Assembly (NCBI RefSeq): GCF_964204645.1
Contig: NC_134032.1
Coordinates: 5,823,175 to 5,887,174, forward strand
DNA length: 64,000 nt
Direction: 5' to 3'
Source of the DNA: Tubulanus polymorphus
Lineage: Eukaryota; Nemertea; Palaeonemertea; Tubulaniformes; Tubulanidae
Of this stretch, positions 4,525-58,560 are shown in pieces. The notes beneath the pieces are model-generated. The model was given only the letters and a program-made list of their open reading frames with translations. It had not been told where the DNA came from and did not search any database. Numbering within the stretch: the first letter of the stretch is position 1; every line of letters begins with the position of its first letter. The translations under genes were made by a program, and so were the position numbers.

Positions 4525-7500
4525 GTAAGTTTCGATAGTGTCATTTCCGATGATATTTAGAGAAAATTCCAAATCATTAAAATTACATATAGCCTACTTT
4601 GGACGACATATAAATGTATATACTAGATATTCAAGGAAATTTCAGTAAGAACAATCATAACGCTATTTCCGGGTACCTAGTATCATGAAGTTCAATGAAA
4701 ACTTCATCTGAGCATTCTATAGGCTATGCAATTTACTGGCACGTACTCCCAAGCAGTCATGAATTAGAGTTGCATGTGTCAAACTTCGTCATTTGGATGC
4801 ATCTTTTGTATTACTAATTCGTTTTATCAAGTATTCCACGTCATCACCTGAAATCGTCTGTTGAGACTCAATTTGTGTTTCCGATTCAAATTAGTTCGAA
4901 TTGCTATATGACCAATGAGTCCCAATTTCCATTTCAATTTACTAGCTTTAAGTCATCATTTGGCTAATGAAGTCACAATGAAGTCGTCGTTATTGAGTCC
5001 AAAATTATATCTCGAATTTAATTTTCTACGTAAGTGTAAGTACGAACGTAAGCCTATAATATAGATTATATAGATTATAATACGTCCATGATCGACATCT
5101 AGGCATTTACAACGACTTAACCAACTTTGACTGACGGGAATGCATATTTTTATATAGTTGTTTTTGTGTAGGCACGACCCCCTACTGTACCGCGCAGTGT
5201 CTGGGCTAACAATAGCGTAACAACTGTCACCAAAAACCAGAAATCAAGTCAACAAAGTTATTGAAACGCGTATTAGCAGTGTGTTGTATCATGTCTGATT
5301 TCTTTGTACAACCCTAGACTATATTCTATGATATAACCGAATATAAAATGCCGCACAAAGAATAAAAAGTGTACGAAATTTTTCCCTGAGCTAATACTTA
5401 TCTAAGTTAGTGTTTTGACTATCGTATAATTAATACTCACCTTCAGGAATACTAGGGTTATAAAAGTGATGACTTACACTTTTTATTTCAGATATAGGCC
5501 TATTTCTAACACTTTTAAAAATTTAATAATGATATCATTTGTACTATCATCAATCAAATTTAGGTTACAAAAAAAATCAATGATAGATATATATATATAC
5601 TGTATAACGTCGAGGTAAGAAAGTAGAAATCTGATCATTTTGAATTCAAATGAAGAAATATCGAATTTCAATTATTTCTTATCTAAAGTATTTAACAGAT
5701 AAAATGTGTTTATTCAGGACTCATAGTAGCCTACTATATTGGGATAGAGGGGAAAATTGCTTTTATTGTAGCTGAATCTTTAAACTGTATTTTGAAACTC
5801 GATTACCGGTACTCCCTTCTCCCTTTAGTGCACGCCGGCTGTGAGTGCACACCGGCTGTACAAACATTTACCTACTCGAATAGTAGGTCTTGCGTAAATT
5901 AAAAAAGAGGACTTAAAAAAGAAAATATCTTAGATGAAATATGAGGCCTGTGTAGTATCTTGAATAGGTTACACTAGTAAAATCTAAGCCTCGATCATAC
6001 CATGGATTATATGAGGAAACCGTTTTGTGAGTCGGGCAAACTGAAATTTTTATCAGCCCTATAATACGCTTGGTATACGTGCGGAAAATAGATCATATAA
6101 TTCAAACCCTTATGTCAAAATTTAAAAGTAAATAACAAACCTGACGGTGATCCCTAGAGAAGCAAAGTTCGAAACTTCGCCTCCTCCGTTGTTAATTTTT
6201 GCGTGACAAATTTTGCTTTTAATCTTTCAAATTTGAACATAGTTGGTTTTGATAATCGAATATTAATCTAATATTCGGCCTTTCACTCGAGGCGTATAGA
6301 TTTATATTTTATAGTCGAGTCAATTCATTTTTGAATCATTTTCGTCCACAGCAAAATAAATCTATACAGTGACGAAGTTATTTCTGTGCAATGAAGCAGT
6401 TTCTATAGACCTATATGTTATTTCCATATAGCTCTAAACTCTGAACGACCCTTCACAGCCCTTCTCAAGTACCGGATTAAATCCTAAGTAGTTATAAACA
6501 CTGTTCGAGTTTTCTTTTTCTTTATATTGCTAATGAAGTTTGACACGATTCAAATACTGGGTATTAAGGTTATGAAAAGAAGTCAGCGGTGTAGATCAGA
6601 CTGCAAAGGTCAAATATTTCTAATTGAATCTATATCTCTATGTCTACATATGTACATGTATTTACATATGTATACTGTAGTATTTTTATATTAGAAATAG
6701 CTAGTTATAGTATCAACCCTGACCTGGAATTTTTCCTATTATCTTGTGACGATGATTAAGTAAATAATTAGCCAGTAATTAATAAATCGCCTAGTTAATT
6801 ACCAAAAAGGCTGGGGTACCCTGTCCCTCTCAGTTGGACAGCATTGTCTATTCTTCAGGATAGGTGGTAATCGTCGTCGATTAGCGAATTTTTGGAATAT
6901 TTCCTGCGAAAGAAAGGTTGTTGTTTCCACGAGACTGAGCACAATATTATCGAAATTATCATCGTCCAAGTAGGGTGCTTGCAGAGAAGGGTTATCAGTA
7001 ACCTGCGATGTGACTCTTGTCTTGAAAATCAGGGAAAACATCAGGGGATTTCTTGACTGGTGGCGAGTGGCAGAAGAAATCTCTTGATAATAAACAGCCC
7101 ACACTGTGGATATCTCATATCAATCAGATCAGGGAATTTTCTATCAAGGGCCACTGAATTTGGGATACCCTTATCTGTTAGTACCAACAGGACCAATTTA
7201 AAAAGTTGCGAGCGTACACACCAAAGCTCCATATGGTTTAATTTGACTTTGGATCCAGTTCCACAGCTATGGGTCTAATCTGACTCCAAGACCAGTTCCA
7301 CAGCTGTGTGTGGGTTAAACTTGACCTACTTCCACAATTTTGTAAGTGCAATTGACTGAGGACCAAGCTCTAAGATATATGTGGATTCTAAGATCTGAAT
7401 TGGGTTCTACGTTCTGAAATGAAGATCTTACAGTAAAGTCTCAATGTCGAAATGTATATCTTATGGTTATCAGTAAAATAACATATCCAAGCAGTAGGAG

Positions 7501-19871: not shown

Positions 19872-20033
19872 TTATTGTACGGAAGCGTCCTGGGGACATA
19901 ATTAATTTTGGCTCAAGTCCATTATAGCATTAAATAGTTCCAGCAGGGACTTATCACATTGGACTGGTATTTGGAATTAATCCGCCAATATTGGACTGAT
20001 TGAATCTTACGACATTACGCCATAGGGACGTGC

Positions 20034-20255
20034 GAACATACCGACATACAGACAAACCGACGAACCGACATACCGACAAACCGACAAGCCGACGAACCGA
20101 CAAACCGACGAACCGACAAACCGACGAACCGACAAACCAACATACCGACAAACCGACATACCGACAAACCGACGAACCGACAAACCGACATACCGACAAA
20201 CCGACATACCGACGAACCGACAAACCGACATACCGGCAAACCGACGAACCGACAA
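20034..20255. repeat. 8-bp tandem array, left arm of foldback element 1
   Basis: About 27 units of CCGACAAA, CCGACGAA and CCGACATA. Open reading frames across it in several frames (TDKPTNRH, CRFVGLSV) are by-products of the 8-bp period. Confidence 0.92.
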
Positions 20256-20710
20256 ATCCTTGCGTGGATTACCCTTATATAAAGTGGCTGGGATCGAGGG
20301 GCTGCGTGTATGCGTGGATTACCCTTATGTTAAGTGGCTGGGATCGAGGGGCTGGGTATGTACCTGGATTACCCTTGTATAAATTGGCTGGGATCGAGGG
20401 GCTGTGTGGTGCATGAATTACCCTTATATAAAGTGGCTGGGATCGAGGGGCTGGGTATATGCGTGGATTACCCGCCGATTACCCTCATATAAAGTGGCTA
20501 GGATCGAGGGGCTGGGTATATGCGTGGATTACCCGCCGATTACCCTCATATAAAGTGGCTAGGATCGAGGGGCTGCGTGGTTGCGTGGATTACCCTTATA
20601 TAAAGTGGCTGGGATCGAGAGGCTGCGTGGTTGCGTGGATTACCCTTATATAATGTGGCTAGGATCGAGGGACAGGGTTTTTCCGTGGATTACCCGTGGC
20701 TGGATCGAGG
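20256..20710. repeat. 50-bp tandem array, core of foldback element 1
   Basis: About nine units containing GGATTACCCTTATATAAAG and GGCTGGGATCGAGGGGCTG. The same 50-bp unit, on the other strand, forms the core of the element at 22186-23740. Confidence 0.92.
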
Positions 20711-20718
20711 GAATACGA

Positions 20719-20793
20719 GTATGTCGGTTTGTCGGTTCGTCGGTTCGTCGGTTTGTCGGTTTGTCGGTATGTCGGTTTGTCGGTTTGTCTTGA
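20719..20793. repeat. 8-bp tandem array, right arm of foldback element 1
   Basis: About nine units of GTCGGTTT and GTCGGTTC, the reverse complement of the 20034-20255 array, so the two arrays can pair across the core. Confidence 0.9.
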
Positions 20794-20933
20794 AAAGTAC
20801 GTAGCCGAATTACTCCTTTTCTAAAAATGTATCTTTGAGCGGGGAACTATTCCACGCTATACTGGACTTGAACCTTAATTTTCTTATTTTTTGCTGATTG
20901 AAAAGTCATTAAATTAGATGAAAATTTTTTTAT

Positions 20934-21070
20934 TAAAATGTATGTTTTTCGACCGGCGGTGATTTAATTCTGACTTCTTTCACCGAATTAAATCATTTTT
21001 ATTAAACGTTATGTTTTTTTCGACCGGCGGCGATTTTAATTCGACCTTTTTCGTGGAATCAAATCATTTT
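20934..21070. repeat. Two-copy direct repeat in left arm
   Basis: TTTTTCGACCGGCGG followed by GATTTAATTC..C and AAATCATTTTTAT occurs twice, about 70 bases apart. The right arm of the large inverted repeat has no second copy. Confidence 0.6.
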
Positions 21071-22259
21071 TATGTCGGTACTCGAAAAACGCCTAATGAA
21101 ATACACCGAATCGGAAAACGCATAACGCCTAATTCCTAGAAAATGACCTAATTTCGTAATTGCACCATCTACTGAGACTCACAATCCAACTCATCAACGG
21201 AACAGTTTGAAAATACATGTGTTTTACGCTTCACGAAACGAGACTACTACTCTAATAAACTTCATTATAGGATGATGATAGAATGTCCGCCGTGCAAGCA
21301 ATCAATAAGCCTTTTTACAGTTTCCAGGCGCTATTTTTTTGGGTACCCACCGGGTCCGCATTGTTGAATTTTTTGTCCCTATTTTTTCCCCGTTTAATAT
21401 TTCTATTTCGTTCATATCTCTGGATTGGATAAAGATAGAAACAAAGTGAAAATATCGATGAACTCGGCTGATAATAAACTTTTTTATGATATCACTCATT
21501 TGTTAAGTTAATGCAACAATGCGCACTGGTGAAGTTATAAACATTGATATCGTCTTCCCGATAATTCAACTTGAGTTATTGCTCATCTCATTCAAAAGTT
21601 CGTAATTCTTACAAAATTTAATCTACATTTTTGAAGTTTTCAGGATCAATAGCCATCTATATGTGGTCCTATACACCTTTTACCGTTTTCAATTATCCGT
21701 ATTAGTTTTTAAGTAGTTGCGAGTCAAACTTCCAAAACACGTTTTCTAGAGTATCATGTTTGCATATTTATATCAAGAAATTTGACAATTCAACCGGTCC
21801 TACTTTGTTAAAATCAAAATTTTCAGTAACTATGGAAACAAGGGCACCTAGTTATTTGAAAAAATGGTAAATAGAGATATATTTCTAGTAACACAGGGAC
21901 AGAATACGGGTTTGGAGGGTCGGTAGTCCGGACCCCCGCTCCTTCCCATTAAGGTTACCATCTTTGTCAAGACAGTGATCGCATAAAGCCTACAATTCTA
22001 ACACTCATCCTCTTGCAAATTAAATTGTTTTGGATGTATTTGTTTCAACACCGAGGAGCACCCTACTCGCAGCCTTACGGAAAATGTCCTTATTTTTGTA
22101 CCCCTCTCCCAATCATCTAAGATAGTAAAAAAAGTCGAAATAAGTCTTCTAGTGTCAGGCATTTAAGTTTCATTGATCTCCCGTCGGTTCAACTCCAGAA
22201 TAGGTCAATATAGTTCCATCGTGGAGGATTTTCTTTAATGAAGTGAGTGGTTCGGTTTC

Positions 22260-22528
22260 TAATTGCCGACCTATTTTACTCGTCGACAATTCCGACGATT
22301 TAGAATTGCCGACCTATTTTACTCGTCGACAATTCCGACGATTTAGAATTGCCGACCTATTTTACTCGTCGACAATTCCGACGATTTAGAATTGCCGACC
22401 TATTTTACTCGTCGACAATTCCGACGATTTAGAATTGCCGACCTATTTTACTCGTCGACAATTCCGACGATTTTAAATTGCCGACCTATTTTACTCGTAG
22501 ACAATTCCGACGATTTAGAATTGTTGAA
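22260..22528. repeat. 43-bp tandem array, left arm of foldback element 2
   Basis: Six nearly identical units (TTGCCGACCTATTTTACTCG then TCGACAATTCCGACGATTTA). Each unit contains the palindrome GTCGAC. Variation is limited to single bases, so the array is young or homogenised. Confidence 0.93.
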
Positions 22529-22599
22529 GGGAAGATAAATTTTCAAGCAACGACACGGCCACTTGATGCCGATTGCAGTTTGTATCTATAAAGGGTAAT

Positions 22600-23338
22600 C
22601 TACACACGGTCCTTCATCCCAGCCATTTTATATCAGGGTAATCCACACAAACACCCAGCCCCTCGATCCCAGCCACCTTATTCAAGGGTAATCCACGCAA
22701 ACACACAGCCCCTCGATCCCAGCTACCTTATTCAAGGGTAATCCACGCAAACACACAACCCCTCGATCCCAGCCACTTTATATCAGGGTAATCCGCGCAC
22801 ACACACAGCCCCTCGATCCCAGCCACTTTATATCAGGGTAATCCACGCACACACACAGCCCCTCGATCCCAGCCACTTTATATCAGGGGTAATCCACGCA
22901 AAAACACAGCCCCTCAATCCCAGCCACCTTATTCAAGGGTAATCCACGCAAACACGCAGCCCCTCGATCCCAGCCACTTTATTCAAGGGTAATCCACGCA
23001 AACACACAGCCCTCGATCCCAGCCACATTATATCAGGGTAATCCACGCACACACGCAGCCCCTCGATCCCAGCCACATTATATCAGGGTAATCCACGCAC
23101 ACACGCAGCCCCTCGATCCCAGCCACATTATATCAGGGTAATCCACGCACACACGCAGCCCCTCGATCCCAGCCACATTATATCAGGGTAATCCGCGCAC
23201 ACACACAGCCCCTCGATCCCAGCCACTTTATATCAGGGTAATCCACGCACACACACAGCCCCTCGATCCCAGCCACTTTATATCAGGGTAATCCGCGCAA
23301 ACACGCAGCCCCTCGATCCCAGCCACTTTATATCAGGG
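22600..23338. repeat. 50-bp tandem array, core of foldback element 2
   Basis: About fifteen units with CCCCTCGATCCCAGCCAC and AGGGTAATCCACGC. Reverse complement of the core units at 20256-20710. Two sub-types differ by TTATATCAGGG versus TTATTCAAGGG. Confidence 0.93.
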
Positions 23339-23366
23339 GATATTATTATATAAAAGATATTGCAAT

Positions 23367-23660
23367 TCTAAATCGTCGGAATTGTCGACGAGTAAAATAG
23401 GTCGGCAATTCTAAATCGTCGGAATTGTCGACGAGTAAAATAGGTCGGCAATTTAAAATCGTCGGAATTGTCGACGAGTAAAATAGGTCGGCAATTCTAA
23501 ATCGTCGGAATTGTCTACGAGTAATATAGGTTGGCAATTCTAAATCGTCGGAATTGTCGACGAGTAAAATAGGTGGGCAATTCTAAATCGTCGGAATTAT
23601 CGACGAGTATAATAGGTGGGCAATTCTAAATCGTCGGAATTGTCGACGAGTAAAACAGGT
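23367..23660. repeat. 43-bp tandem array, right arm of foldback element 2
   Basis: About seven units of TAAATCGTCGGAATTGTCGA..GTAAAATAGGTCGGCAATTC, the reverse complement of 22260-22528. Confidence 0.92.
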
Positions 23661-25059
23661 CGGCTACCTGGCTCGCGGAAGAATACGTGCTATGTACTCA
23701 GCCTGGGCAGATCTACTTTTACCTGTTCTGGAGTTGAGCCCTCCCGTCTATATTATATCGTTTCACAGTATATTGCATCAATGAAATATGGCCGTTGGCT
23801 GGTGATTCTGGAGCCAGTTGCTCAAAAGTTAACCATCAGAAATACCATGGTGTAATGGCGAGCACTCGGTCCTCTGTTAAATACCGGTACCCGATTTACA
23901 TTTTTGAATTTTCAGCAGCAGCTCCACGCAAATGGAGGCAGCCATGGCTGTGTCAAACTTGACGCTTGCAAACCGTTGGATCGGGTTTGCTTTTTTTGAG
24001 AATGTTCGATGTTCGATCTTTATTACTGATCGTGACACGATTGTTTCAAATTGAATTTGAATATATTAGGCTTAGTCGATTGTGTTGGAAAGATTGGAAC
24101 TTTGGAATATATTAGTATATATTGAGGAACATAACATTCGTTTACTTTCTGTCAAAATTGATCTCGTGCGTTTGATAGTTGTTTTGAGATTTGGCACATT
24201 CTCAAGGCCTGTATTCAAGTTCTGTATTAGCCCACTTCACGTAAGTAGCCATGTAAAATTGCGACGGCAATACGACGCAGCATTGAGACTGTGGTTCTCA
24301 TACATGTGCCACATAATGTCTGACTTTCACATTTGCAATCGTATACCCGTACGTGCAGTTTTGGAATCGAATGAAACACGTTGGACAAAATGATAATTTC
24401 TGTTGTGAACCTAGATAGCTGGTTAAAGCAACACCTGGGTTATTTCGTTTATTTTGACAAATCCTAGAGAATATATATCTTTAATTACCATTTTTCAAAA
24501 ACCTAGGAGCCCTTATTTCCCTGGTTACTTAAAAAATTGATTTTCAACAAAGTAGGGACCGGTGAAATTGTGAAATTTCCTGATATATAGATGCACGCAG
24601 GGGACCCGGGAAACCGTGTTTTGGAAGTTTGACTCGCAACTACTAAAAAACTAATACGGATAATTGAAAACGGTAAAAGGTATATAGGACCACATATAGA
24701 TGGCTATTGATCCTGAAAATTTCAAAAATGTAGATTAAAATTTGTAAGAATTACGAACTTTTGAATGAGATGAGCAATAATTCAAGTTGAATTATCGGGA
24801 AGACGATATCAATGTTTATTACTTCACCAGTGCGCATTGTTGCATTAACTTAACAAATGAGTGATATCATAAAAAAGTTTATTATCAGCCGAGTTCATCG
24901 ATATTTTTACTTTGTTTCTATCTTAATCAAATCCAGAGATATGAACGAAATGAAAAAATTAAACCGGAGAAAAATAGGGACAAAAATTTCAACAATGCGG
25001 ACCCGGCGGGTACCCAAAAAATGGCGCCTGGAAACTGTAAAAAGGCTTATTACATAACG

Positions 25060-25520: not shown

Positions 25521-25719
25521 CAATTTCTTGGATGTTACTTGAATTAGGCGTTATGCGTTTTCCGATTCGGTGTTTTTCATTAGGCGTTTTTCGAATACCG
25601 TTTTTATGTAACATAACATTCAATAAGAAATCGAATTTTTATTCAATTTTATGATTTTTCAATCAGCAAAAAATAGAAAAAATTAATTATGTCCCTAGGA
25701 CACTTTCGTACAATTATTG

Positions 25720-29127: not shown

Positions 29128-32100
29128 CCCTAACCCTGCGCACCTATCTAGCAGAAGACAAGTATAACTATTTACGCTATTAAAACGCGGCCCCATGCGC
29201 GCATATCTAGCAGAAGACAAGTAAAACTATTTACACTACTAAAACGCGCCCCCCTGCGCGCATATCTAGCAGAAGACAAGTAAAACTATTTACACTATTA
29301 AAACGCGGCCCCCTGCGCGCATATCTAGCAGAAGACAAGTAAAACTATTAAACCGCGGCCCCCTGCGCGCATATCTAGCAGAAGACAAGTAAAACTATTA
29401 AAACTTTTAAAACGCGGCCCCCTGCGCACCTATCCAGCAGAAGACAAGTAAAACTATTTACACTATTAAAACGCGGCCCCCTGCGCACCTATCCAGTAGA
29501 AGAAGTAAAACTTAGTAAAACTATTAGTTCAGAATCAAATAGAAATATAGCGGCCCCCTGCGCACCTATCTAGCAGAAGACAAGTAAAACTATTTACACT
29601 ATTAAAACGCGGCCCCCTGCGCGCATATCTAGCAGAAGACAAGTAAAACTATTTACACTATTAAAACGCGGCCCCCTGCGCACCTATCTAGCAGAAGACA
29701 AGTAAAACTATTTACACTACTAAAACGCGGCCCCCTGCGCGCATATCTAGCAGAAGACAAGTAAAACTATTAAAACTATTAAACCGCGGCCCCCTGCGCA
29801 CCTATCCAGCAGAAGACAAGTAAAACTATTAAAACTATTAAACCGCGGCCCCCTGCGCACCTATCCAGCAGAAGACAAGTAAAACTATTTACGCTATTAA
29901 AACGCGGCCCCCTGCGCACCTATCTAGCAGAAGACAAGTAAAACTATTAAAACTTTTAAAACGCGGCCCCCTGCGCACCTATCCAGCAGAAGACAAGTAA
30001 AACTATTTACACTATTAAAACGCGGCCCCCTGCGCACCTATCCAGTAGAAGAAGTAAAACTTAGTAAAACTATTAGTTCAGAATCAAATAGAAATATAGC
30101 GGCCCCCTGCGCACCTATCTAGCAGAAGACAAGTAAAACTATTTACACTATTAAAACGCGGCCCCCTGCGCACCTATCTAGCAGAAGACAAGTAAAACTA
30201 TTTACACTATTAAAACGCGGCCCCCTGCGCACCTATCCAGTAGAAGACAAGTAAAACTATTTACACTATTAAAACGCGGCCCCCTGCGCACCTATCTAGC
30301 AGAAGACAAGTAAAACTATTTACACTATTAAAACGCGGCCCCCTGCGCACCTATCCAGTAGAAGAAGTAAAACTTAGTAAAACTATTAGTTCAGAATCAA
30401 ATAGAAATATAGCGGCCCCCTGCGCACCTATCTAGCAGAAGACAAGTAAAACTATTTACACTATTAAAACGCGGCCCCCTGCGCGCATATCTAGCAGAAG
30501 ACAAGTAAAACTATTAAAACTTTTAAAACGCGGCCCCCTGCGCACCTATCCAGCAGAAGACAAGTAAAACTATTAAAACTTTTAAAACGCGGCCCCCTGC
30601 GCACCTATCCAGCAGAAGACAAGTAAAACTATTAAAACTTTTAAAACGCGGCCCCCGCGCACCAATCCAGCAGAAGACAAGTAAAACTATTAAAACTATT
30701 AAACCGCGGCCCCCTGCGCACCTATCCAGCAGAAGACAAGTAAAACTATTAAAACTTTTAAAACGCGGCCCCCTGCGCACCAATCCAGCAGAAGACAAGT
30801 AAAACTATTAAAACTTTTAAAACGCGGCCCCCTGCGCACCTATCCAGCAGAAGACAAGTAAAACTATTTACACTATTAAAACGCGGCCCCCTGCGCACCT
30901 ATCTAGCAGAAGACAAGTAAAACTATTTACACTATTAAAACGCGGCCCCCTGCGCACCTATCCAGTAGAAGAAGTAAAACTTAGTAAAACTATTAGTTCA
31001 GAATCAAATAGAAATATAGCGGCCCCCTGCGCACCTATCTAGCAGAAGACAAGTAAAACTATTTACACTATTAAAACGCGGCCCCCTGCGCGCATATCTA
31101 GCAGAAGACAAGTAAAACTATTAAAACTTTTAAAACGCGGCCCCCTGCGCACCTATCCAGCAGAAGACAAGTAAAACTATTAAAACTTTTAAAACGCGGC
31201 CCCCTGCGCACCTATCCAGCAGAAGACAAGTAAAACTATTAAAACTTTTAAAACGCGGCCCCCTGCGCACCTATCCAGCAGAAGACAAGTAAAACTATTA
31301 AAACTTTTAAAACGCGGCCCCCTGCGCACCTATCCAGCAGAAGACAAGTAAAACTATTAAAACTTTTAAAACGCGGCCCCCGCGCACCAATCCAGCAGAA
31401 GACAAGTAAAACTATTAAAACTATTAAACCGCGGCCCCCTGCGCACCTATCCGGCAGAAGACAAGTAAAACTATTAAAACTTTTAAAACGCGGCCCCCTG
31501 CGCACCAATCCAGCAGAAGACAAGTAAAACTATTAAAACTTTTAAAACGCGGCCCCCTGCGCACCTATCCAGCAGAAGACAAGTAAAACTATTAAAACTA
31601 TTAAACCGCGGCCCCCTGCGCACCTATCCAGCAGAAGACAAGTAAAACTATTAAAACTTTTAAAACGCGGCCCCCTGCGCACCAATCCAGCAGAAGACAA
31701 GTAAAACTATTAAAACTTTTAAAACGCGGCCCCCTGCGCACCTATCCAGCAGAAGACAAGTAAAACTATTAAAACTTTTAAAACGCGGCCCCCTGCGCAC
31801 CCACCCAGCAGAAGACAAGTAAAACTATTAAAACTATTAAACCGCGGCCCCCTGCGCACCTATCCAGCAGAAGACAAGTAAAACTATTAAAACTTTTAAA
31901 ACGCGGCCCCCTGCGCACCAATCCAGCAGAAGACAAGTAAAACTATTAAAACTTTTAAAACGCGGCCCCCTGCGCACCTATCCAGCAGAAGACAAGTAAA
32001 ACTATTAAAACTATTAAACCGCGGCCCCCTGCGCACCTATCCAGCAGAAGACAAGTAAAACTATTAAAACTTTTAAAACGCGGCCCCCTGCGCACCAATC

Positions 32101-32912
32101 CAGCAGAAGACAAGTAAAACTATTAAAACTTTTAAAACGCGGCCCCCTGCGCACCTATCCAGCAGAAGACAAGTAAAACTATTAAAACTTTTAAAACGCG
32201 GCCCCCTGCGCACCCACCCAGCAGAAGACAAGTAAAACTATTAAAACTATTAAACCGCGGCCCCCTGCGCACCTATCCAGCAGAAGACAAGTAAAACTAT
32301 TAAAACTTTTAAAACACGGCCCCCTGCGCACCCATCCAGCAGAAGACAAGTAAAACTATTTACACTATTAAACCGCGGCCCCCTGCGCACCTATCCAGCA
32401 GAAGACAAGTAAAACTATTAAAACTTTTAAAACGCGGCCCCCTGCGCACTTATCCAGCAGAAGACAAGTAAAACTATTTACACTATTAAACCGCGGCCCC
32501 TTGCGCACATATCCAGCAGTAGACAAGTAAAACTTAGTAAAACTATTAAACCGCGGCCCCTTGCGCACATATCCAGCAGTAGACAAGTAAAACTTAGTAA
32601 AACTATTAAACCGCGGCCCCCTGCGCACCTATCCAGCAGAAGACAAGTAAAACTATTTACACTATTAAAACGCGGCCCCCTGCGCACCTATCCAGCAGAA
32701 GACAAGTAAAACTTAGTAAAACTATTAAACCGCGGCCCCTTGCGCACATATCCAGCAGTAGACAAGTAAAACTTAGTAAAACTATTAAACCGCGGCCCCC
32801 TGCGCACCTATCCAGCAGAAGACAAGTAAAACTTAGTAAAACTATTAAACCGCGGCCCCCTGCGCACCTATCCAGCAGAAGACAAGTAAAACTTAGTAAA
32901 ACTATTAAACCA
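29128..32912. repeat. 59-bp minisatellite array, about 63 units
   Basis: Unit: GCGGCCCCCTGCGCACCTAT, then CCAGCAGAAGACAAGTAAAA, then CTATTAAAACTTTTAAAAC. Variants replace the last part with CTATTTACACTATTAAAAC. A distinctive longer unit with AGTAGAAGAAGTAAAACTTA and TCAGAATCAAATAGAAATAT recurs at about 29490, 30040, 30357 and 30962, so multi-unit blocks have been duplicated. Minus-strand open frames of 86-91 aa within it are repeat artefacts. Confidence 0.95.
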
Positions 32913-36403: not shown

Positions 36404-39400
36404 GTTTGTATTTATCAGCTCACTACAGACTACTTGATCTGAGGCACACATCTGTGTACTGTCTTGGGGATCATTGCGTCATGGAAAGAGGCGGAATTGA
36501 CCGTGTCCAATGTTTTAGGTTATGGAATTGAACAAAAATGATCTAAGACTGATCTTAAATTGTTAGGTTGGCTACAGAATCAAAATGAGCTCAGACTGGT
36601 CTTGAGCTCTTAGTTCGACTATAGAACCAGGAGCTTAGATTGGTCCTTAGTTGTGTGATTGGTCTTGATTCAAGTTGTCAACTCATTACCTGCCCTTATG
36701 ACGTGATTCCAAAAGTCACCCTTAATCTTAAAACTAACTGTGAGTTGTTAGATTGGCTAAACAACTAAGTCGGTCTTAGACAGTTAACGTCCCACGATCC
36801 CAGCCAACTCTATAGAGGGGAATGTTTGTAAAAGTTTACACCCTATGATCCCAGCCAACTCAACAGAGGGGAATATTTGAAACAATTTACGCCCTTCGAT
36901 CCCAGCCAACTCTACGGAGGGGAATATTTGAAACATGATTGTAGACATTTTCGACGATTAGAATCAGTCCAATATTGGTGGATTAATTTCAAATACCAGT
37001 CCTATGTGATTAGTCTCTACTGGAACTATTTAACCCTTTCAATGCCACATAGTGTCTCCGCTGCTGTACCGGAGGGAATTTAGGGGTTTATAGGGGTATA
37101 TTTGAAACTTCATAGAATAATTACCATGGTATCTGACACAGAAAATTTATATAGCATGTTGTTGATAACTTTTGGGCCAACAATGTAGACATAAATAATT
37201 TGGATCATCCTCCCTCTGCAGAGACTCGAACCTGATGGCATCGCTACACTCAGCCACGGCACGAACCCCTGCATCAGTAGACCGGGTGCGCAGGTACATG
37301 CGCAGCTTTCCGAACGAAAACTGGCGGCACCAATCAGATTGCTCGTTGTATAATCGTTGAGGCAAATTTCAAGGAAGAACTATAAATGGGAAAACCCGGG
37401 CTAAAATAAAACGGGATTTCTGATTGGCTAAAAATCACATCATCTGAACTGCGCATGTATCTGCGCACACGGTCGATTATGGCAGGGTTTCGTGCCGTGG
37501 CAATCTCGATGCCATCAGGTTCGAATCCCTGCCGGGGAGGATGAATTTGGATATAAGTGAACTTGAGGTCAAGGTCACATACTCCAAGATGGCCGCCATT
37601 AAAAAAAATTCACGAATAAGTTTCAGATAAACTGCTCTGTCTACCAGCAAAATGCACTGATCTATTCAATTCCAACTGAAATCAAATGCCATACCGTATT
37701 TTCCGGTGTATAAGTTGAGTTATTGAGACCAAAAATCATGTCCAAAAAAACGTAGGTCGACTTATACACCGGCTACACTTTCGATATCGTTTTAAACTGA
37801 CGAACGATGTTTAGAGTTCAAGGTCGCCATGATGAAATGGAATATTAATTCATGTTAGGCTACACTCATATACCAATTAGAATTTAGGATGTTGATAAAA
37901 ATAGTTTCTTATAGTTTGGAAATGTTTCAAAATTAACTAATGTTAAAAATCAAAAGAGAAAGAAAACTGCGTATATTCATTGTACAGTGTTTATATAAGC
38001 CGCGATGCTGTGGCAGCGTGCCAATAATCAATACACAGTCAGTCTAATACTAGACTACAGGCGCGCAGCATTCAACGTATACACTATACATTCAACACGT
38101 GGATACAAACAATGAGCACTAATCCGGTAATTTAATATTAGAAACAACAGATCCCAATGATTTAACACTTTGACTGCGGCACCCGAGTTAACTCGGGTTC
38201 TAAGGCCCGATTTTTTACTGCGGCGCCCGAGTTAACTCGTTTTTATGCACCCGTTCAGTGGCGACTCCTGTTTTTGGGAAACGGTACCACGGAACTATTA
38301 TTTGTTCACGAATGCAACTAACAGGCTTCCATACTGCATTCTAATGTTGATTTCGAATCGATTTTGTTATTGTACGGGTAGGTAGAGGCGCTGAATGTAC
38401 AGTGCTTATCTATGGGTGAGTTTCAAAACAAAGATGGCTGCGCCCAGGAGACAAGGTGGTAGACAGCTAACGGACTTAGAAATAAGCGAAATATTTGCCG
38501 ACAGTGATTCGGAAAATGAACTTTTCGATGAACAAAATGCTGCAGCAGATGATGAGGAGGCCAGGTTAAGCTCTGAGGCTTCGGAAATTGAATCAAACGG
38601 TGAATCAAATGATGCGCATGATTTGGACTCTGAAAATAATTCTGAAATTTCGGCCAGCGGCAGTGATGAATCGAACGATGATGATATAGCCCCAGTGGCC
38701 GCCCCAGCCCCCCCACCAGTTCAACGTGGTAGAGGCTTAGTAAGGAGGGGTGCTAGAGGTAGAGGGGCAAATCGTGGACGTGGTCGGGGCCGTGTTCCAG
38801 CTAATAGGCCTGATCCGGATGCAGGATGGAGTGACACTAATGTGCAGCCAGTTGTTGGTGCCTTTACAGGTACACCTGGATTGAATGTAAACATGGACAG
38901 TGATGAGCCTATTGATTATTTTAGGCTTTATGTAACTGATGAACTTATAGACATTCTAGTTACTCAGACTAATTTGTATGCTTCTCAATTTATTAGAGAT
39001 GCACAGCTGAAGCCTAAATCGAGGGTCCACGCATGGAAAGATGTTGACGCACAAGAAATGTGGCGTTTCCTTATGCTACTCTTCATGATGGGTATTATAA
39101 AAAAACCCACTATAAACATGTATTGGTCTAAAAAGAAAACAGTCAGAACTCCATTTTTCAATGAAACCATGCCTCGTGATCGATTTCTGCTGATATTGAA
39201 ATTTTTTCATTGTAACGACAACGATGCTCGTCCTGGTGACAACCAGGATCGGTTATACAAAGTCCGCCCTGTCTATGATCACCTCACACGCAAATTTACC
39301 GAAGTTTACACGCCCACGGAACATTTATCATTAGACGAAGGGGTGTTGAAGTGGCGCGGGAGACTAGTGTTTCGTTGTTATAACCCCCAAAAGCCCGAAA

Positions 39401-42400
39401 AATATGGAATGAAGTCGTACATGGTATCGGAATCCGAATCTGGGTATTTGTACAGTTTTAGTCTCTATTGTGGCATGAACCGGAATGTTCCTACCATATG
39501 TGATGATACCCTACAGCCTTTATATGGTAAGAACTATAAAGTTTACATGGATAACTTCTACAATAGCAGGAAGGTATCCCAGCACTTGCTCAATAATAGG
39601 ACTCACACATGCGGAACTGTTCGTATAAACCGCGGTCTTCCAAAGGCGCTTGTTCAACAAAGCAAAGAACTTCGACGTGGCGATGTCGCTTTCCGTCAAA
39701 AGGATGGAATAATGTTTCTGCTATGGCTAGATAAGAGACTGGTAAAAATGGTATCCACTTTACATGATTCTTCTATGGCAGAAACAGGTAAACAGGATAA
39801 AGATGGAAATCTGATTAGAAAACCGCAATGCATAATTGATTATAACCATTTTATGTCTGGTGTGGACCACTGTGATCAGATGTCGCGTTATTATCCGTGT
39901 GTTTTGAAAACTGTGAAATGGACAAAAAAATAGTACTATATCTCATTCATCTATCAGCAGTGAACAGTTATTTCCTGTATCAAAAGAATCCCAATAAGGA
40001 CAAACTTCATCTTCTGGAATTTTTGGAGCGTATAATTGAATCTATGGCTGAACTTGCGGGTGAAGTTCCCGTGGGACATCAGGCCAATAGGGGACCACAG
40101 GGAGATCCAGTTACAAGGCTTACAGGAGGGGCAGCTAATCATGCATTTGTTTTGATCCCCCCTACTGCCAAGAAACAAAACCCAACCAGAGTATGCAGGG
40201 TTTGCTCAAAAAAGGGCATGAGAAGCGAGTCTAGATATATGTGCCGCAACTGTGAAACCCCCCTTCATCCTGAATGTTACTCTGCATATCACTCCAAAAA
40301 GATTTACTGGGTGTAAAATATCATAAAACCAAAGAATAAAAGACAAGAGTAAGGTAAGACATTATTTTTTCTTCATTTATTGCTCTTTTATTGAAGGACT
40401 ACAAAATTTAACATTTTTTGGAAAAAACGTTAGCACAGGGGTACATACGCGTTTCTAAAATTTCAGCAGTCAAAGTGTTAATAATGCAAACAGTGGTAAA
40501 AACTCTCAACTACTATGAGAATGACATCGGAACTGTTTTCAATGTGACATATGTAAACACATGAAGAAGCGACTCGACTTATACACCGACTATAGCCCTA
40601 GCACAACTTTTTAAACTGAAAATTTGACCTCGACTTATACACCGGGTCGACTTGTACACCGGAAAATACGGTATATCCTTACTTTATGTAGTAAAAATTT
40701 AAATAGAAAGCAATAGAACAACTAAAAGATTTATTTTTCCACTCATTTACCAACTTCTCCACCGATATGTCGGAAGGCCTGATGTAAGGGGTTTCATTGG
40801 GGTATAATTTCAGGCCTCAGAAAATTGTTACCTATGTATTTGACACTGATACATTGTATATACCATGGTGTTGATAACCATTGGGCTTACAAATAAGACA
40901 AATTATTTGGATGTATGTGACCTTGAGAATGGACAGTTTCTGGTTCTTCGTCATTGTAATAGGTGTCCGTTGCCATAACAACCGTATCAACAGGGTCTAA
41001 AAAAATTGTCACTGATTTCATTTTCATCATCAAAATCATTGCCGGCACCATAAACCTATTTTCTGACTAAGTCTCATCATCTGAACTGCTTCTGTCATAT
41101 TCGTTGTCACTCTCAATTTGTTCACTACCAAATTCCAAGTGACCAGCATCACTGTCAGCATCATATACGAGCTGCTGAACCGTTTCATCCAGCCAAATTG
41201 TTTTTTAGCCCACTTGGGACTTTAGTCCCAGCGGGCTATTGCGTTCACTTTTTGTCCGTCGTCCGTTCGTCCGTCCGTCCGTAGACGGAATCCAGTTATT
41301 TTGGGAAGTTTTGAAGACGCTTCAAGGTAATGTCTTGATATTTGGGTTACACATGTATCTACCCTAGACACATCTTCAGCCCAAAAACTGGCCCTGTCAG
41401 ATTCAAGATGGCCGACTGGCAGCCATTGTTGTTCGCCAAAATCAGCACTTTTTACACATTTTTGAACTTTTTGAGGGAAATTTTGAAGACGCTTTGATCA
41501 ATTACCTTGATCTTTCAGATATATGTGAATTCCTCCAGGGCCCATCAGCATAAGAAAAATTGGGTCGATCGGACTCAAGATGGCCGTCCTATGACCTTTT
41601 TAGTGCCCAAAAATTTTAATTTTGGCCCAAATTCTGAGTCCTGTAGCTTCCTACTGGTTTATCATTTCTCATTGCAATTTGTGATGGGTATTCTTTGGAA
41701 AGGGATGTTTTATACCTGAGACAGGTATTTTTCATCAGCCAATTATGACGCAATTGGCGGCCATCTTGGTGTCAGCAGTACTCGTTCGTAAGTGGGAAAA
41801 AGTTTTTCCACGTTATATTGATACCTAAGCGTATTTTGTTACCACAATCATTTAGAAAGTTGTAGCTCATAACGTGTTCTATGATTGTGGTGAGTTTCAA
41901 GGTCATTGGTTTTTGTATATGGCCACCAGGGGGCGTTGAATAATGCAATATCTTAGTATTTCTATATTATATTGGTATCAATGCATATTTTGTAACCACA
42001 ATCAATTGCAAAGTTGTAGCTCATGACATCATCTATGATTGTGGCAAGTTTTAAGGCCATTAGTTATTCTATATGGTCACCAGGGGGCGATAAATGGTAG
42101 AATAACTTAGTATTTCCTTATTATATTGGTACCTAGGCATATTTTGTTACCATGATCAATTACAAAGTTATAGTTCGTGACATGTTCTATGATTGTGGTG
42201 AGTTTCAAGGTCATTGGGTTTTAAATATGGTCACCAGGGGGCGTTGAATAGTAGAATAACTTAGTATTTCCATATTAAAGTGGTAACAAGGCATATTTTG
42301 TTATCACAATCAGTTACAAAATCGTAGCTGCTGACATGTTCTATGATTGTGGTGAGTTTCAAGGTCATTGGATTCTGTATATGGTCACCAGGGGGCGTTG

Positions 42401-43152
42401 AATATTGAAATTGTTAGATTGTTGAGCATTTGGAACCACTTCCCAAGTGGGCATGGTGTCCCTGGACCCCTAGTTTTCATGGATGTTGCCATCTTGGATT
42501 TTATGCAGATGGCAGCACCGGCTGATACTGATAGATATGCCCTTCTAGAAGAAGGATTAAGTGATACCGTATCACATACGGCACGGGTATGCTAGCTTGC
42601 CAATTTGTACTGTATGCCATACGGTTGTGGTATTGTAAGGGTCAATGAATATAGTTGTACGAACCTTTAGATACTAGAAAGGTAAACCACTTTGCCAGTG
42701 CCAAATTATTATATCTAAAACTGACCTTTCATCTGAATTTGATTTCAGGAGTGAATCCCAGAGTCCGACCAAAATCTTCACCTAGAAATCAGAAGAAATT
42801 CCGGATGACCGCTCACAAAGACTCTTACGTCGATGAGACTTTATTCGGGCCGGCACCGGTTTATTGTGGTTGGGAGGCCCCTTGGGGCGAGCGCAGTCCA
42901 AAAACGCGCCCATTCCTATTCTCACCGACAGACTATCGCGTTAAGAAGGGCTGGGGCAGCTCGGCGGCTGGAGAGGTTGGACCAACAGCTACTAAACAGA
43001 TTCCTCCCCAGGGAATGCAGCGATCCAAACTCGATACCGCGTTGCAAATACCGGAACATTCGGGTGCGGACTACTGGCAGAGGCCAGCAGCGCCCTCTAG
43101 TGCTAGGAGTACAGCGCGGGAAACTAAACCAGCGTTGAAACCCTGGAGATGA
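36100..43152 (+). CDS. RITA1: RITA1-like RBPJ-interacting and tubulin-associated protein, two exons
   Basis: Join 36100-36403 and 42749-43152 gives 708 nt, 235 aa plus stop, in frame across gtttgt / gatttcag borders. Residues 60-68 read SYVDELLFG (first copy) and exon 2 has SYVDETLFG; both are followed by an EAPWGE block. Human RITA1 has the same duplicated S-Y-x-D-E-x-L-F-G signature and ends in K-P-x-W-(K/R); here the end is ALKPWR. LWSP at residues 93-96 (36376-36387) matches the hydrophobic-Trp-x-Pro motif with which RITA1 docks on the RBPJ beta-trefoil domain. The known protein shuttles RBPJ from the nucleus to tubulin and dampens Notch output. A stop in frame upstream (36085) sets ATG 36100 as earliest start; ATG 36124 is possible. 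The acceptor-like ttcag at 36065-36069 implies a noncoding upstream exon. Length is 235 versus 269 aa in human. Confidence 0.78.
36404..36782. other. Start of RITA1-like intron with diverged repeats
   Basis: Repeating words CTTAG, GACTGGTCTT, TTGTTAGGTTGGCTA occur from 36531 to 36780, too diverged for a firm period. Confidence 0.4.
36783..37040. mobile_element. Degenerate third relative of the foldback family
   Basis: Three ~51-bp units (GATCCCAGCCAACTC..AGGGGAAT) at 36797-36920 resemble the 50-bp core of the two foldback elements. Then 36945-37036 (CAGTCCAATATTGGTGGATT, CCAGTCC, GGAACTATTTAA) is the reverse complement of the left arm of element 1 (19932-20008). The terminal GG..TCCA end is missing, so one end is lost. 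Confidence 0.65.
37190..37555. repeat. Head-to-head pair of tRNA-derived SINE-like repeats
   Basis: Minus-strand copy 37217-37272 reads GTGGCTGAGTG (A-box-like) and GGTTCGAGTC (B-box). Plus-strand copy 37481-37534 has GGTTCGAATCCCTGCC with the A box shortened. The arms pair as an inverted repeat, including TGCGCAGGTACATGCGCAG against its partner at about 37449-37467. A tRNA gene is unlikely because no cloverleaf anticodon arm is formed. Confidence 0.6.
38395..40316 (+). pseudogene. piggyBac transposase (DDE_Tnp_1_7), one frameshift
   Basis: Frame 38395-39933 continues in another frame from about 39920 to the stop at 40314-40316. The break is a run of seven A at 39924-39930 where eight would restore frame, so it is a single-base loss or an assembly error. 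Numbered from 38395, the catalytic Asp candidates are Asp314 (SLDE), Asp386 (YMDN) and Asp491 (GVDHCDQ), all present. An acidic N-terminus and an Arg/Gly-rich patch (111-133) precede the core. The C-terminal zinc finger (CRVCSKKG..CRNC..HPEC) is intact. ATG 38434 (AAGATGG context) is the more likely start. Everything else looks recent. Confidence 0.92.
40335..40340 (+). terminator. Polyadenylation signal of the piggyBac transposase
   Basis: AATAAA 19 bases after the transposase stop codon, inside the element. Confidence 0.6.
40675..41206. other. RITA1-like intron, dispersed repeat copy
   Basis: Segment 40750-40925 (GGGGTTTCATTGGGGTAT, TTTGACACTGATACA, GTTGTTGATAACC, AAATTATTTGGAT) resembles 37030-37210, so the two copies of a dispersed repeat flank the nested piggyBac structure in the same orientation. 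Confidence 0.5.
41207..42460 (+). mobile_element. Repeat element with terminal hairpin and ~153-bp units, copy 1
   Basis: Begins with the near-palindrome AGCCCACTTGGGACT-TT-AGTCCCAGCGGGCT (41207-41237), then a GTCCGTCCGTCC-type run and a unique head. Four units of about 153 bp follow from 41820. Each unit has CATATTTTGTTACCACAATC, GATTGTGGTGAGTTTCAAGG and CACCAGGGGGCG. An end-like CTTCCCAAGTGGGC is at about 42440. No ORF of its own. Class unknown; non-autonomous. Confidence 0.7.
42749..43152 (+). CDS. RITA1: RITA1-like gene, last coding exon
   Basis: Acceptor gatttcag ends at 42748. The exon opens with a basic stretch (PRNQKKFR), then module 2 (SYVDETLFG, WEAPWGE, FLFSPTD), a Gly/Gln/Ser-rich linker and the conserved tail ALKPWR before TGA. 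The FLFSP of this copy aligns with LLWSP of exon 1 but has lost the Trp. Confidence 0.78.
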
Positions 43153-44538: not shown

Positions 44539-45745
44539 AGCCCACTTGGGACTTTGGTCCTTATTGCGTTCACTTTTTGTCCGTTCGTCCATCCATAGAC
44601 GGAATCCAGTTATTTTAGGAAGTTTTGAAGACACTGCAAGGTAATGTCTTGATATTTGGTTTATACATGTATCTACTCTAGACACATCTTCAGCCCAAAA
44701 ATTGGCCTGGTCAAGATAGCCGACTGGCAGCCATTTTTGTTCACCAAAATCAGCACTTTTTACACATTTTTGAAATTCTCAAAGGAAATTTTGAAGAGGC
44801 TTTAATCAATTTCCTTGATTGTTTACATATTATATTTGTATCCCCCAAGGGTTTATCAGCATGAGAATCCTAATGGTTTCGCATTTTGCATCACAATTTG
44901 TGGTGGGTATTCTATGAAAAGGAATCTTTAATGCATTTGACAGGTATTTTAGATATTGAATAATATACAATTTGTCTACTTATCATCGTACCATGCATAT
45001 TTTGTATCTACAATCGATTGCAAACTTGTAGCTCATGGCATTTTCAATGATTTTGGTGAGTTTCAATTTTATTGGTTTTTGTATATGGCCACCAGGGAGC
45101 ATTGAATTGTACAATAAATTAGTTTTCACATATTGTATTGGTATCTATGCATATCTTGTAACCACAATCAATTGCAAAGTTGTAGCTTGACATATCTTAT
45201 GATTGGTGAGTTTGAAGGTCATTGGATTTTGTACATGGTCACCAGGGGGCGTTGAAAAATAGGATCACTTAGTATTTCCATATTATATTGGTACCTATGC
45301 ATATTTTGTGACTTCATTCAATTGCAAACTTGTGGCTCATGGCATATTCTATGATTGTGGTGAGTTTCAAGGTCATTGGTTTCAGTATATGTCACCAGGG
45401 GGCATTGAATATTAGAATAACTTATTATTTCCATATTATATTGGTATCTAGGCATATTTTGTTACCACAATACATTGCAAAATTCTAACTCATGACATGT
45501 TATATGATTGTGGTGAGTTTCAAGGTCATTGGTGTTTGTATACGATCACCAGGAGGCGTTAAATAGTACAATTACTTAGCATTTCCATATGATATTGGTA
45601 CCTAGGCATATTTTGTTACTACAATCAGTTGCAAAGTTGTAGCTCATAACATGTTTGCAGTAAGTTTTAAGGTATTTGCTTTTGCACATAGTCGCCAGGG
45701 GGCGTTGAATAGTAGGACAATATAGTATTTTCATGCAATATTGGG
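44539..45745 (+). mobile_element. Repeat element with ~153-bp units, copy 2
   Basis: Same head as 41207 (AGCCCACTTGGGACTTTGGTCC, with half of the hairpin deleted) followed by five ~153-bp units at 44990-45740. Units carry CACCAGGGAGCA, CACCAGGGGGCG, CACCAGGGGGCA, CACCAGGAGGCG and CGCCAGGGGGCG. Same orientation as copy 1. Confidence 0.7.
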
Positions 45746-55684: not shown

Positions 55685-58560
55685 CGTTTATTCTGCCTAA
55701 TCCCACCAACCCCGGTGAGCGTTGGAGCATGGAAAATATATAAGTTAATCTACCGTTTCAATGACTAAATCATATCTCCAACACTCTCCGGGGGTGAACG
55801 AGTTACATAATATTAATTAGGAGAAATTTCAAAAAATTCGGTTCTTGGCTTCTGTTTTGGCTCGTCTTGGTAACCGATCATCTTCTGCATGAGTTCTAGT
55901 TCGGCCATCTTCTTCTGCATGAGTTCTAGTTCGGCCATTTTCTTCTGCATGAGTTCTAGTTCGGCCATCTTCTGCTGCATGAGTTCGTCTATCGTCTTCG
56001 ACGTCTATGTTGGTGTATTTGACATCTGGACTGGCTCGTAGTTCAAGCGGATACAGCTTGGACACTGCTCGGTTCGTGAAACCATTTGCTGTCTTTAATG
56101 CAACAGATCTACATATTCTATCTGGTCCATAGAACAGTTCTGTCACTAGTCCCAACTTCCATTTAAGCCTTGGCGTTTCTTCATGTATGATCACCACTTC
56201 GCCAACCTTTATTTGTTCTTCTTTTCCAGATCGTTGATTATACTCTCTTAGGGCTGTAAGATACTCTTTAGACCATCGACTACGAAATCGCGTTAATATA
56301 TCTTCTAGGTCTCACGTCTGCTTCATTCTTCTGAATCTGGAAGTCTGGATCTTCCAGCTCTTCCGGGGTGATAAAATCATGTGGAAGTGTAGTCAGCCGA
56401 TGACCACACATCAGCTGCGACGGTGTAACAGGGGCTTCATCGTTTATGTCGGTAGAACTGTACGTCAGTGGTCTGTCGTTGACGATAGCCTCTGCTTCCG
56501 ATACCACTGTCCGAAAGTCATCAAACGAGATATGAGCTCTTCCTATAACCTTCTTCAATACCATCTTCACAATGCCAACTAAACGCTCCCAAAAGCCTCC
56601 ATGCCATGGAGCCCTTTTCGTTATGAAGGACCACGCTACTCCTTTCTTCGACACATATTCTGATGCTTTCTTGAAGGTTGCAGCATTATCAGTCAAAACC
56701 TTCTTTGGTAGAGATCTACGGCTTACAAATCTTCTAAAAGCTCTCGTGAACGATTCTGTAGACTGATCTTCTGTGACTTCCAAATGTAAACCTCTACTCA
56801 CTGAGCATGTGAATAGACAGACATAGCACTTCTGAGATTCTGACATCATCTTCACGTTGAAGGGACCAGCAAAGTCAATACCAGTATGGAAAAACGCGGG
56901 AACATCTGCTACTCGCGCACCTGGCAACGGTGGCTCGACAGGAAGCTTGAATGGACGACCTGATAGTTTACGACAGGCGACACATTGACGGACCATACTC
57001 TTCACTAACTGACGTACACACGAAATCCAAAACGACTGTCGGATGAAAGTTACGGTTGAATTAATCCCAAGATGGAAAACTCCCTCATGTGCATCTCGAA
57101 CGACAAGTTGAGCCAATCTGTGAGTTTTCGGCAACAATACTGGGAACTTTGTAGAGAACGGCAGATCCGAGTTACCAATTCGACCATGACATCTAATCAC
57201 GTCATCATCATCGATGTAGAGATTAAGTTGATGAACGATATCAACCTTAATCTGACTACGTCCACGCATCATTTCTCGAGCAGCAGCGAATTCGTCTCTC
57301 TGTGACGCTTTAATCCATTCAATTCTAGCTCTTTCGATTTCAGACGATCTCAAATTTTCTTCTCTGTTTTTCTGATCACCACGTACAACATCAACGAATC
57401 TCATTACCCATGCTGATATTCTAAATAATCTGTTTAAATCAGAATAATCTCGAGCATCAATAATCTGATCAATCCCAATCTTCTCAGGTTCAATGTTCTT
57501 TCCTACTTCTTCAAGTATTGGTAATTGAACATTCAGCAACGTTGACTCAGCAGACCATTTAGGGTGATCACCAGTGCGTAACCATTCTGGGCCTTCCCAC
57601 CATAGTCTATTGCATCTTAGCTCAGATGCTGTACAACCGCGTGTTAATACATCAGCTGGATTCTCTGAACTTGGGCAGTATCCCCAAACAGCATCTGGAA
57701 CTTGACTCTTAATTTCTGTAATTCTGTTCAATTCGAACGACTTCAATGGATTATCAGATTGTAATCTATACAGTACTGACTGGTAATCAGACCACGCAAA
57801 CAGCTTCTTAGGTGTACCAATCGCATCCAAGATAAACTTAGCCAACCGTGACGCAATTACACCAGCGACAAGTTCCAGTTGTGGAATTGATAGTTGTTTA
57901 ACGGGTGCAACTCTTGACTTCGACATCAGTAATCTTGAATCTGTATCACGAACTAGATAAGCGACAGCTCCATAAGCCTTTTCACTTGCATCTGCAAATA
58001 CATGTAACTCGCAGCCATCTATCGAGTCTAAACCATAGTCAAACGTCATACGTCCATAGTCAAAATCCAGAGCTTGAGATGTTTCTTTTGAAATTTTAAC
58101 CCAACGATCTTTAATATCTTTTGGTACTGGATCATCCCATACAAGACTTCTTCTCCATATATCCTGCAGCAGTGCTTTAGCGTTAATCAACAGTGGAGAA
58201 ATAAATCCTATTGGATCGTAGACCTTTGATGAATCACTGAGAATCATTCGTTTAGTCAATGAATCTTGATGAATCGACGAAAATGTAACGGGTAATAGTC
58301 TCAAATTATCATTTTCAGAATCCCATCTGAGTCCAAGTACCTTCACTTTAACCGATTTCTCAGCAACACCATCTCGTTCCGCTCGTTCCATTACTTCTGG
58401 ACAATAACTACTCCATGATCGTAAATTAAAACCACCTTTCTTCAATAACTGACGAGAATATTCGTAAAAATCTGTCATAGATGACTGCTCATTCATCGAG
58501 ATTATGACGTTATCCACGTATAACACATTATTATTCGAAAATGGAATTATTAAATTCATG
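55680..58560 (-). mobile_element. BEL/Pao LTR retrotransposon, 5'-truncated
   Basis: Minus strand. Pol from the RT YVD motif through RNase H and integrase, then a C-terminal DUF5641-type segment. A probable 3' LTR start TGTTGGAGATATG follows at 55783 after a purine stretch (GGAGAG), and is cut off near 55680 by the Gypsy fragment. gag, protease, most of RT and the 5' LTR are absent. Confidence 0.82.
55829..56290 (-). pseudogene. BEL/Pao pol C-terminus with internal repeat
   Basis: Continuation after a frameshift: RFRSRWSKEYLTALRE, VGEVVIIHEE and the SVALKTANG..R.VSKLYPLE block typical of the DUF5641 tail. Then three ~27-bp repeats (HAEEDGRTRT) at about 55895-55985, and a basic end. The repeat is in frame, so length variation here would not break the protein. 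Confidence 0.8.

Follow-up and report, generated by a model that had tools for sequence, protein, structure and literature searches.

Two foldback structures lie in a 64,000-nucleotide stretch of the genome of the nemertean Tubulanus polymorphus (contig NC_134032.1, positions 5,823,175 to 5,887,174; the window). They very probably belong, as non-autonomous elements moved in trans, to a foldback lineage of the Merlin superfamily (IS1016/IS1595-like) whose short members are deletion-derived and whose arms are replaceable. This reading is built from sequence: ends, target duplications, empty sites, genes, exon boundaries placed by homology, a nested joint and a mixed-arm copy. The original prediction had proposed a foldback family exchanging unrelated satellite arms around one conserved 50-bp core; as an observation the family is confirmed, and genome-wide, and the interpretation is partly supported. 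As that prediction had stated, the two elements have inverted ends and exact 8-bp target duplications (TTAATTTT and CTCCCGTC, respectively), and in each a 50-bp core lies between inverted arrays of an 8-bp (element 1) or a 43-bp (element 2) unit. They are 965 and 1555 bp long and separated by 1311 bp. Element 2 is inverted relative to element 1; once it is flipped, both run from a GGC end on the left to a GGT end on the right, and their 50-bp units point the same way. A decayed third relative retains 72 bp of a left end of the element 1 type at 92%. The corresponding features, in window coordinates, are:

19902..19909, no strand: left 8-bp target duplication of element 1 (TTAATTTT), from the flanks and an empty site with one copy
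19910..20874, forward strand: element 1, G-type ends, 8-bp arms, 50-bp core, from end motifs, repeat arrays and class assignment
19910..20035, forward strand: left (GGC) end of element 1 and subterminal stretch, the outer 114 bp having at least 40 scored genome matches
20036..20256, forward strand: left 8-bp arm array of element 1, ACAAACCG family, from repeat arrays
20261..20695, forward strand: 50-bp core array of element 1, homologous to the putative transposase intron array of the long copy L011
20722..20789, forward strand: right 8-bp arm array of element 1, inverted (TGTCGGTT), from repeat arrays
20790..20874, forward strand: right (GGT) end of element 1 and subterminal stretch, from end comparison
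20875..20882, no strand: right 8-bp target duplication of element 1
22178..22185, no strand: 8-bp target duplication of element 2 (CTCCCGTC)
22186..23740, reverse strand: element 2, C-type ends, 43-bp arms, 50-bp core
22186..22260, reverse strand: GGT end of element 2, common to the 42-, 43- and 45-bp arm classes, with at least 40 scored genome matches for 22186-22262
22261..22523, reverse strand: 43-bp arm array of element 2, from repeat arrays
22602..23338, reverse strand: 50-bp core array of element 2, from repeat arrays and homology
23362..23664, reverse strand: second 43-bp arm array of element 2, inverted relative to the other arm, from repeat arrays
23741..23748, no strand: other 8-bp target duplication of element 2
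25610..25714, reverse strand: empty paralogous site of the element 1 insertion, 82% over 105 bp, with one TTAATTTT
36794..37033, reverse strand: decayed third relative, comprising a G-type left-end piece (36962-37033), a 42-bp-arm-like piece (36939-36965) and a 51-bp core-like array (36794-36935)

In the 268-Mb assembly the end motif GGYTCAASTCCA has 365 perfect occurrences, compared with 80 of the reversed control pattern; variants gave 98, 94, 92 and 81. Within 15 kb these ends form 78 inward pairs, a figure that includes overlapping alternatives, versus 10 outward ones. Sixty-two inward pairs combine a GGC end with a GGT end that has the same S base, pairs failing this rule being left out; mixed pairs, among them L013 and L055 with two GGC ends each, were accordingly excluded from the family. 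The pairs passing the rule amount to about 60 elements rather than 62, because one left end is counted twice (61 are distinct, two pairs having one in common) and because the right end of L010, with no family sequence past its 12 bp, looks like a chance match in spite of passing. Inward pairs account for 142 of the 365 exact ends, most single ends falling outside the census; the sequences examined were the inward pairs no longer than about 7 kb together with a number of single ends, pairs above 10 kb being seen in pieces only. Longer end probes had at least 40 scored matches each, with 123 (G-type left) and 86 (C-type GGT) candidates at first look. Target duplications are typical of the family, as predicted: 27 of the 62 pairs have an exact 8-bp duplication, 15 have one mismatch and eight have two, so that 50 fall within two mismatches, and two more pairs have an exact 9-bp duplication. 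With swapped flanks as control, only 43 of 3782 combinations came within two mismatches and one was exact. These numbers exclude that the window holds the only two copies, or that duplications are absent from most copies. The 43-bp-arm class looks young, 12 of its copies being 93.9-99.9% identical to element 2.

That whole structures moved, as had been claimed, is further supported by empty sites carrying a single copy of the duplication. Joined flanks compared with the examined loci gave 42 junction-spanning matches, and among seven element/site pairs inspected, five are empty sites with a junction free of gaps (element 1, L026, L037, L038 and L070), spanning elements with 8-, 42- and 43-bp arms. 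Those of element 1 and L037 have an indel of one or two bases within 10 columns of the junction, and that of L026 a one-base difference; the other two pairs, L022 and L050, have large gaps at the site. Separately, the left flanks of L045 and L050, both with 8-bp arms, carry the same letters (TATGCGGTCC), and since the flanks of both also match L070, L069 and L085, the host sequence is itself a repeat.

The prediction that some transposase must recognise these ends, and that a full-length copy encoding it should be sought, found its answer in two long copies that combine 8-bp arms with ends of the G type: L011, 5548 bp long with GTTATTTC duplicated exactly, and L009, 5070 bp long with two mismatches in its duplication. 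Each contains an uninterrupted 235-residue frame, both recovered without stops in a Merlin domain search that gave 43 matches of several kinds across the genome. The L009 frame matches DDE_Tnp_IS1595 (PF12762) with E 2.7e-28 and the IS1595 NCBIfam model with 114.9 bits (cut-off 75), and in alignment with the Mytilus protein P0007 it shares the blocks EIDESLF, SDxW and NxIEGxWG, which we take to hold the DDE catalytic residues. An upstream frame in L009 ends in ...RTGSIFE followed by GTAATA, and TTTCTACAG precedes GSKLSL of the 235-residue frame; the two parts align with residues 44-83 and 85-299, respectively, of the uninterrupted Mytilus protein, with GT/AG at the exon boundaries and the 50-bp array in between. 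The transposase gene thus appears to be spliced from two exons, and the array would sit in an intron of about 0.7 kb. A decayed third copy, L104, follows the same plan and has both of the genes found in the long form (the second is described below), its right end not being found in the stretch examined. The lineage is a foldback one with its transposase in hand, an enzyme that would recognise the GGYTCAASTCCA ends, act in trans on the short elements and make mostly 8-bp target duplications.

The location of the 50-bp array also explains the foldback 'core', because it lies in the putative transposase intron. The long form would comprise inverted ends with internal satellite arms, the two-exon transposase gene with the minisatellite in its intron and, on the opposite strand, a helicase-like gene of the DUF3987 family. 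The short elements retain the order tip, arm, intron array, arm, tip and look like derivatives of this form in which internal deletions took out both exons and the second gene. The same arm-to-core joint, single-base variants aside, occurs in 20 of the 24 short core-bearing elements with 8-bp arms, so that most of them look like offspring of one deletion derivative; in the remaining four the script matched further inward. Other Merlin copies at L100:148-2450 and L103:1378-2345, 51% and 47% identical to L009 exon 2, carry 8-bp TCCAGTCG arrays, and in L100 the exon 2 match begins directly after a 15-bp AATAATGAAAATGAA array; the intron position may thus hold arrays in more than one lineage. In L054 and L056 a TAT microsatellite has expanded within the 50-bp core array.

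Grouping the pairs by arm satellite, as had been proposed, resolved several arm classes, and the class script detected both a left and a right arm in 55 of the 62 elements. In the order ends, left arm, core, right arm, the 62 pairs are distributed as follows:

G ends, 8-bp arm, 50-bp core, 8-bp arm: 26
C ends, 43-bp arm, 50-bp core, 43-bp arm: 13
C ends, 45-bp arm, 26-bp core, 45-bp arm: 7
G ends, 42-bp arm, 50-bp core, 42-bp arm: 4
C ends, 45-bp arm, no core, 45-bp arm: 2
C ends, 42-bp arm, no core, 42-bp arm: 2
C ends, 42-bp arm, 71-bp core, 42-bp arm: 1
G ends, 8-bp arm, 50-bp core, 42-bp arm: 1 (L033)
G ends, 42-bp arm, 50-bp core, no right arm: 1
C ends, 45-bp arm, 26-bp core, no right arm: 1 (L010, doubtful right end)
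C ends, 42-bp arm, no core, no right arm: 1
G ends, core absent, few or no detected arm units: 3

The proposal that arms are exchanged while ends and core stay holds for the G-ended elements, in which near-identical ends enclose the same core between arms of either 8 or 42 bp, and the 42-bp arm occurs under G-type and C-type ends alike; arms would on this evidence be replaceable modules. The notion of one conserved core fared less well, since the core, apparently an intron minisatellite, is lost or replaced in some subfamilies, with cores of 26 and 71 bp accompanying other arms. One replacement is recorded together with its joint. Compared with L011, the G-ended elements with 42-bp arms are 91-92% identical over the outer 100-111 bp on the left and 92-95% over 74 bp on the right (28 bp only at the right end of L032, which has no right arm). 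Their left side runs to ...ACGTGCG, continues with a C-type tip (GGCTCAACTCCAGAACAGGTAAAAGTAGA) and only then enters the 42-bp arm. This nested-tip joint is common, point changes aside, to 15 copies (five full elements and ten left pieces), ten of which were preselected for two end motifs 121-229 bp apart, limiting the rejection of chance. The fused elements have an exact 8-bp duplication outside their G-type ends in L012, L032 and L071, with one mismatch in L046 and two in L065, and therefore moved as a unit. On the simplest reading, a C-ended element with 42-bp arms landed in a G-ended one, part was then lost, and the fused element would have spread under G ends. Ahead of the joint, in the composite left end of L093, lies an extra stretch of about 100 bp with TTCACC...GGTGAA ends and GCCATAGG/GCCATAGG flanks, apparently another small insertion. 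A second route is suggested by L033, which looks like a recombinant, joining an 8-bp left arm and the core to a right arm of the 42-bp class that comes with the right-end variant of that class; nested insertion and recombination may thus both have swapped arms. Such a recorded replacement opens the long-standing question of the role of foldback arms to experiment, since the protein is known and several arm variants occur naturally, and illustrates one route by which transposons spread and recombine satellite DNA.

A different history, in which separate Merlin subfamilies derived their own arms from common ancestral satellites by divergence in place, with no exchange apart from one nested insertion, seems rather doubtful. 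It would account for the partial alignability of the 42-, 43- and 45-bp units, and the C-ended classes, with 34 bp on the left and about 75 bp on the right in common, could be sister lineages. However, it sits poorly with the two kinds of arm around one core between near-identical G ends, with the 42-bp arms under both end types, and with the possession of one arm of each kind by L033.

Replaceable arms need not be unrelated, and the claim that they are did not stand. A search for the best common word was run on five arm units (8, 42, 43 and 45 bp and, from L099, a further 42-bp unit), with shuffled versions of the units as control. Four of the five contain TCGACAAT without a mismatch, and the best 7-mer across all five, TTGTCGA, deviates by a single base in the 8-bp unit. 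Among 120 shuffled sets there was none that equalled the real units at any word length from 7 to 10. When the units are doubled, those of 42 and 43 bp moreover match at 79% across 67 positions, which means that the arm units are not independent. Sites resembling TCGACAAT are common to the main arm satellites, as repeated binding sites would be, and arms may act as arrays of extra binding sites for the transposase or a partner. This follows the analogy of Galileo, in which footprinting is reported to show extra transposase binding sites in the tandem repeats of foldback-like ends (PMC3688188). That the arms have no function, slippage and unequal exchange having produced the foldback and its arrays incidentally and the shared site reflecting nothing but common ancestry, is on balance unlikely. 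Array copy number does differ freely among near-identical copies, and the units are not independent; against this, the site is retained in units whose remainder differs, arms were detected on both sides in 55 of 62 elements, and the Galileo repeats do bind their transposase.

The second gene of the long form is represented in L009 by an uninterrupted 339-residue frame on the strand opposite the transposase, which matches DUF3987 (PF13148) with E 8e-19 (68.5 bits, cut-off 27) and a PHROG 'DNA helicase' with E 2.7e-10. A diverged part of it, 36-44% identical, lies at L099:193-1357 beside a 42-bp arm-like array, bounded by the ends GGCTCAACTCG.. and GGTTCAACTCCA with a duplication matching at 7 of 8 positions; the end match at L074, considered as a chance hit, was instead recognised as the right end of this short element. 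In L100 the transposase, 51% identical to that of L009, is followed by the start of a DUF3987 protein (27-31% identical). Searches returned six relatives of the protein elsewhere. For two of these the contig has the same size as that of a Merlin match, 2,444,832 bases (P0001 and P0018) and 37,759 bases (P0029 and P0005), which is read as the two genes sharing a contig in two further cases. A scan of viral contigs with P0001 and of genome contigs with P0018 confirmed no relative, sequence searches of the PDB gave no useful match, and the predicted structure of the DUF3987 relative P0001 has a mean pLDDT of 33. By its domain matches the protein may serve as a helicase-like partner of the transposase. 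Tentatively, one might go further and picture a two-gene Merlin lineage in which transposase and DUF3987 partner act together on TCGACAAT-like iterons, any site-bearing satellite can become an arm, mosaics of tip, arm and intron core result, and the partner is kept with the transposase in other hosts. If true, the retention of a phage-helicase-type gene next to the transposase would alter the picture of Merlin as a transposon with a single gene.

Several observations weigh against the reading of a single Merlin lineage with mobile, site-bearing arms. Ten of the 62 pairs show no duplication, and L033, with five mismatches, is among the elements without one and so does not support transposition of a mixed-arm form. 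No intact transposase was found between C-type ends, the long copies having solely G-type ends and 8-bp arms, and the link between the 43- and 45-bp-arm classes and the L009/L011 transposase as their mover is thus one we infer. The DUF3987 frame of L011 is broken, so this copy, one of the two long ones, is not intact, and the TCCAGTCG arrays of L100 and L103 are without the shared site.

Comparison with known systems favours Merlin. The Merlin signature comprises tips starting with GG and duplications of 8-9 bp, which together with a DDE_Tnp_IS1595 transposase are all found in the present family; Merlins with tandem repeats are also reported, one family having the repeat region duplicated in opposite orientation as well (PMC8101967). 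Tandem-repeat Merlins are therefore already known, and the present family, with inverted tandem-repeat arm arrays and the long inverted ends of a foldback, adds arm swapping, a putatively intronic core and a DUF3987 gene as a probable partner, a variant not found described: titles and abstract openings returned by searches of the Merlin and DUF3987 transposon literature contained no foldback Merlin, intronic core or DUF3987 partner, and named Repbase families may exist. Galileo, of the P superfamily, resembles it in long foldback-like ends with internal tandem repeats, ends to which tandem repeats, transposon insertions or other sequence can add length, and differs in a P-type transposase with a THAP domain and 7- or 8-bp duplications (PMC3688188, PMC4168063); it is not known to carry DUF3987. 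Tetris of Drosophila virilis is likewise a modular foldback with tandem repeats in its ends and a link to satellite DNA, but has a single arm repeat of about 220 bp and no known transposase (PMC4079207). Rehavkus elements are DNA transposons with minisatellites in or near their inverted ends, and differ by a MULE-related transposase with a PHD finger and 9-bp duplications (PMC6446971, PMC10218199), 9 bp being also the Mutator length (PMC6446971). Tm1 of root-knot nematodes likewise has asymmetric tips and foldback ends composed of short tandem repeats whose copy number varies, but it has a Phantom-type Mutator transposase and 9-bp duplications (PMC3169594). In the present family exact 9-bp duplications number two of 62, versus 27 of 8 bp. 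A MULE family gave no match at E <=0.1 in the long-copy frames, and in the scan, which covered frames of L009 and one frame of L011, no P-type transposase with a THAP domain was matched; Rehavkus/Mutator and P-type foldback elements, considered as a first identity, were dropped when the long copies proved to encode a Merlin transposase. The same finding sets the family apart from Drosophila FB, to which the original prediction had likened it. FB has inverted ends built of tandem repeats, and its transposase and duplications differ from those seen here.

It is very improbable that a chance nested insertion put the transposase into the long copies and that their mover belongs to a different superfamily. 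Duplications of 8 bp or a similar length are also made by Mutator, hAT and P-type elements. Against this, L009 and L011 unite transposase, intron core, arms and ends in a single plan with matching duplications, a plan that recurs, decayed and with no right end found, in L104, and the tips and duplications are those of Merlin. An assembly artefact is more improbable still: long arrays are difficult to assemble, but about 60 loci with differing flanks and duplications, and empty sites besides, speak against it.

Some further observations concern ends and arrays elsewhere. In L084 a pair of short elements whose ends are similar (501-706 and 5430-5635) is separated by about 4.9 kb, and the region between them (1124-1610) contains one array of a 17-bp unit (CCGACATACCGGCACTC) and one of a 48-bp unit, the latter similar to the 50-bp core. 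At C6:21614199-21632551, five GGCTCAAGTCCA motifs on one strand at 3.8-4.9 kb spacing suggest that a larger unit containing an end is repeated there in tandem. The remainder of the window includes a 59-bp minisatellite of about 63 copies (29134-32909), a DDE_Tnp_1_7 transposase frame (38395-39933), two 154-bp arrays (41801-42404 and 44988-45652), a RITA-like frame (42655-43152) and a Pao-type retroelement frame (56280-58685).

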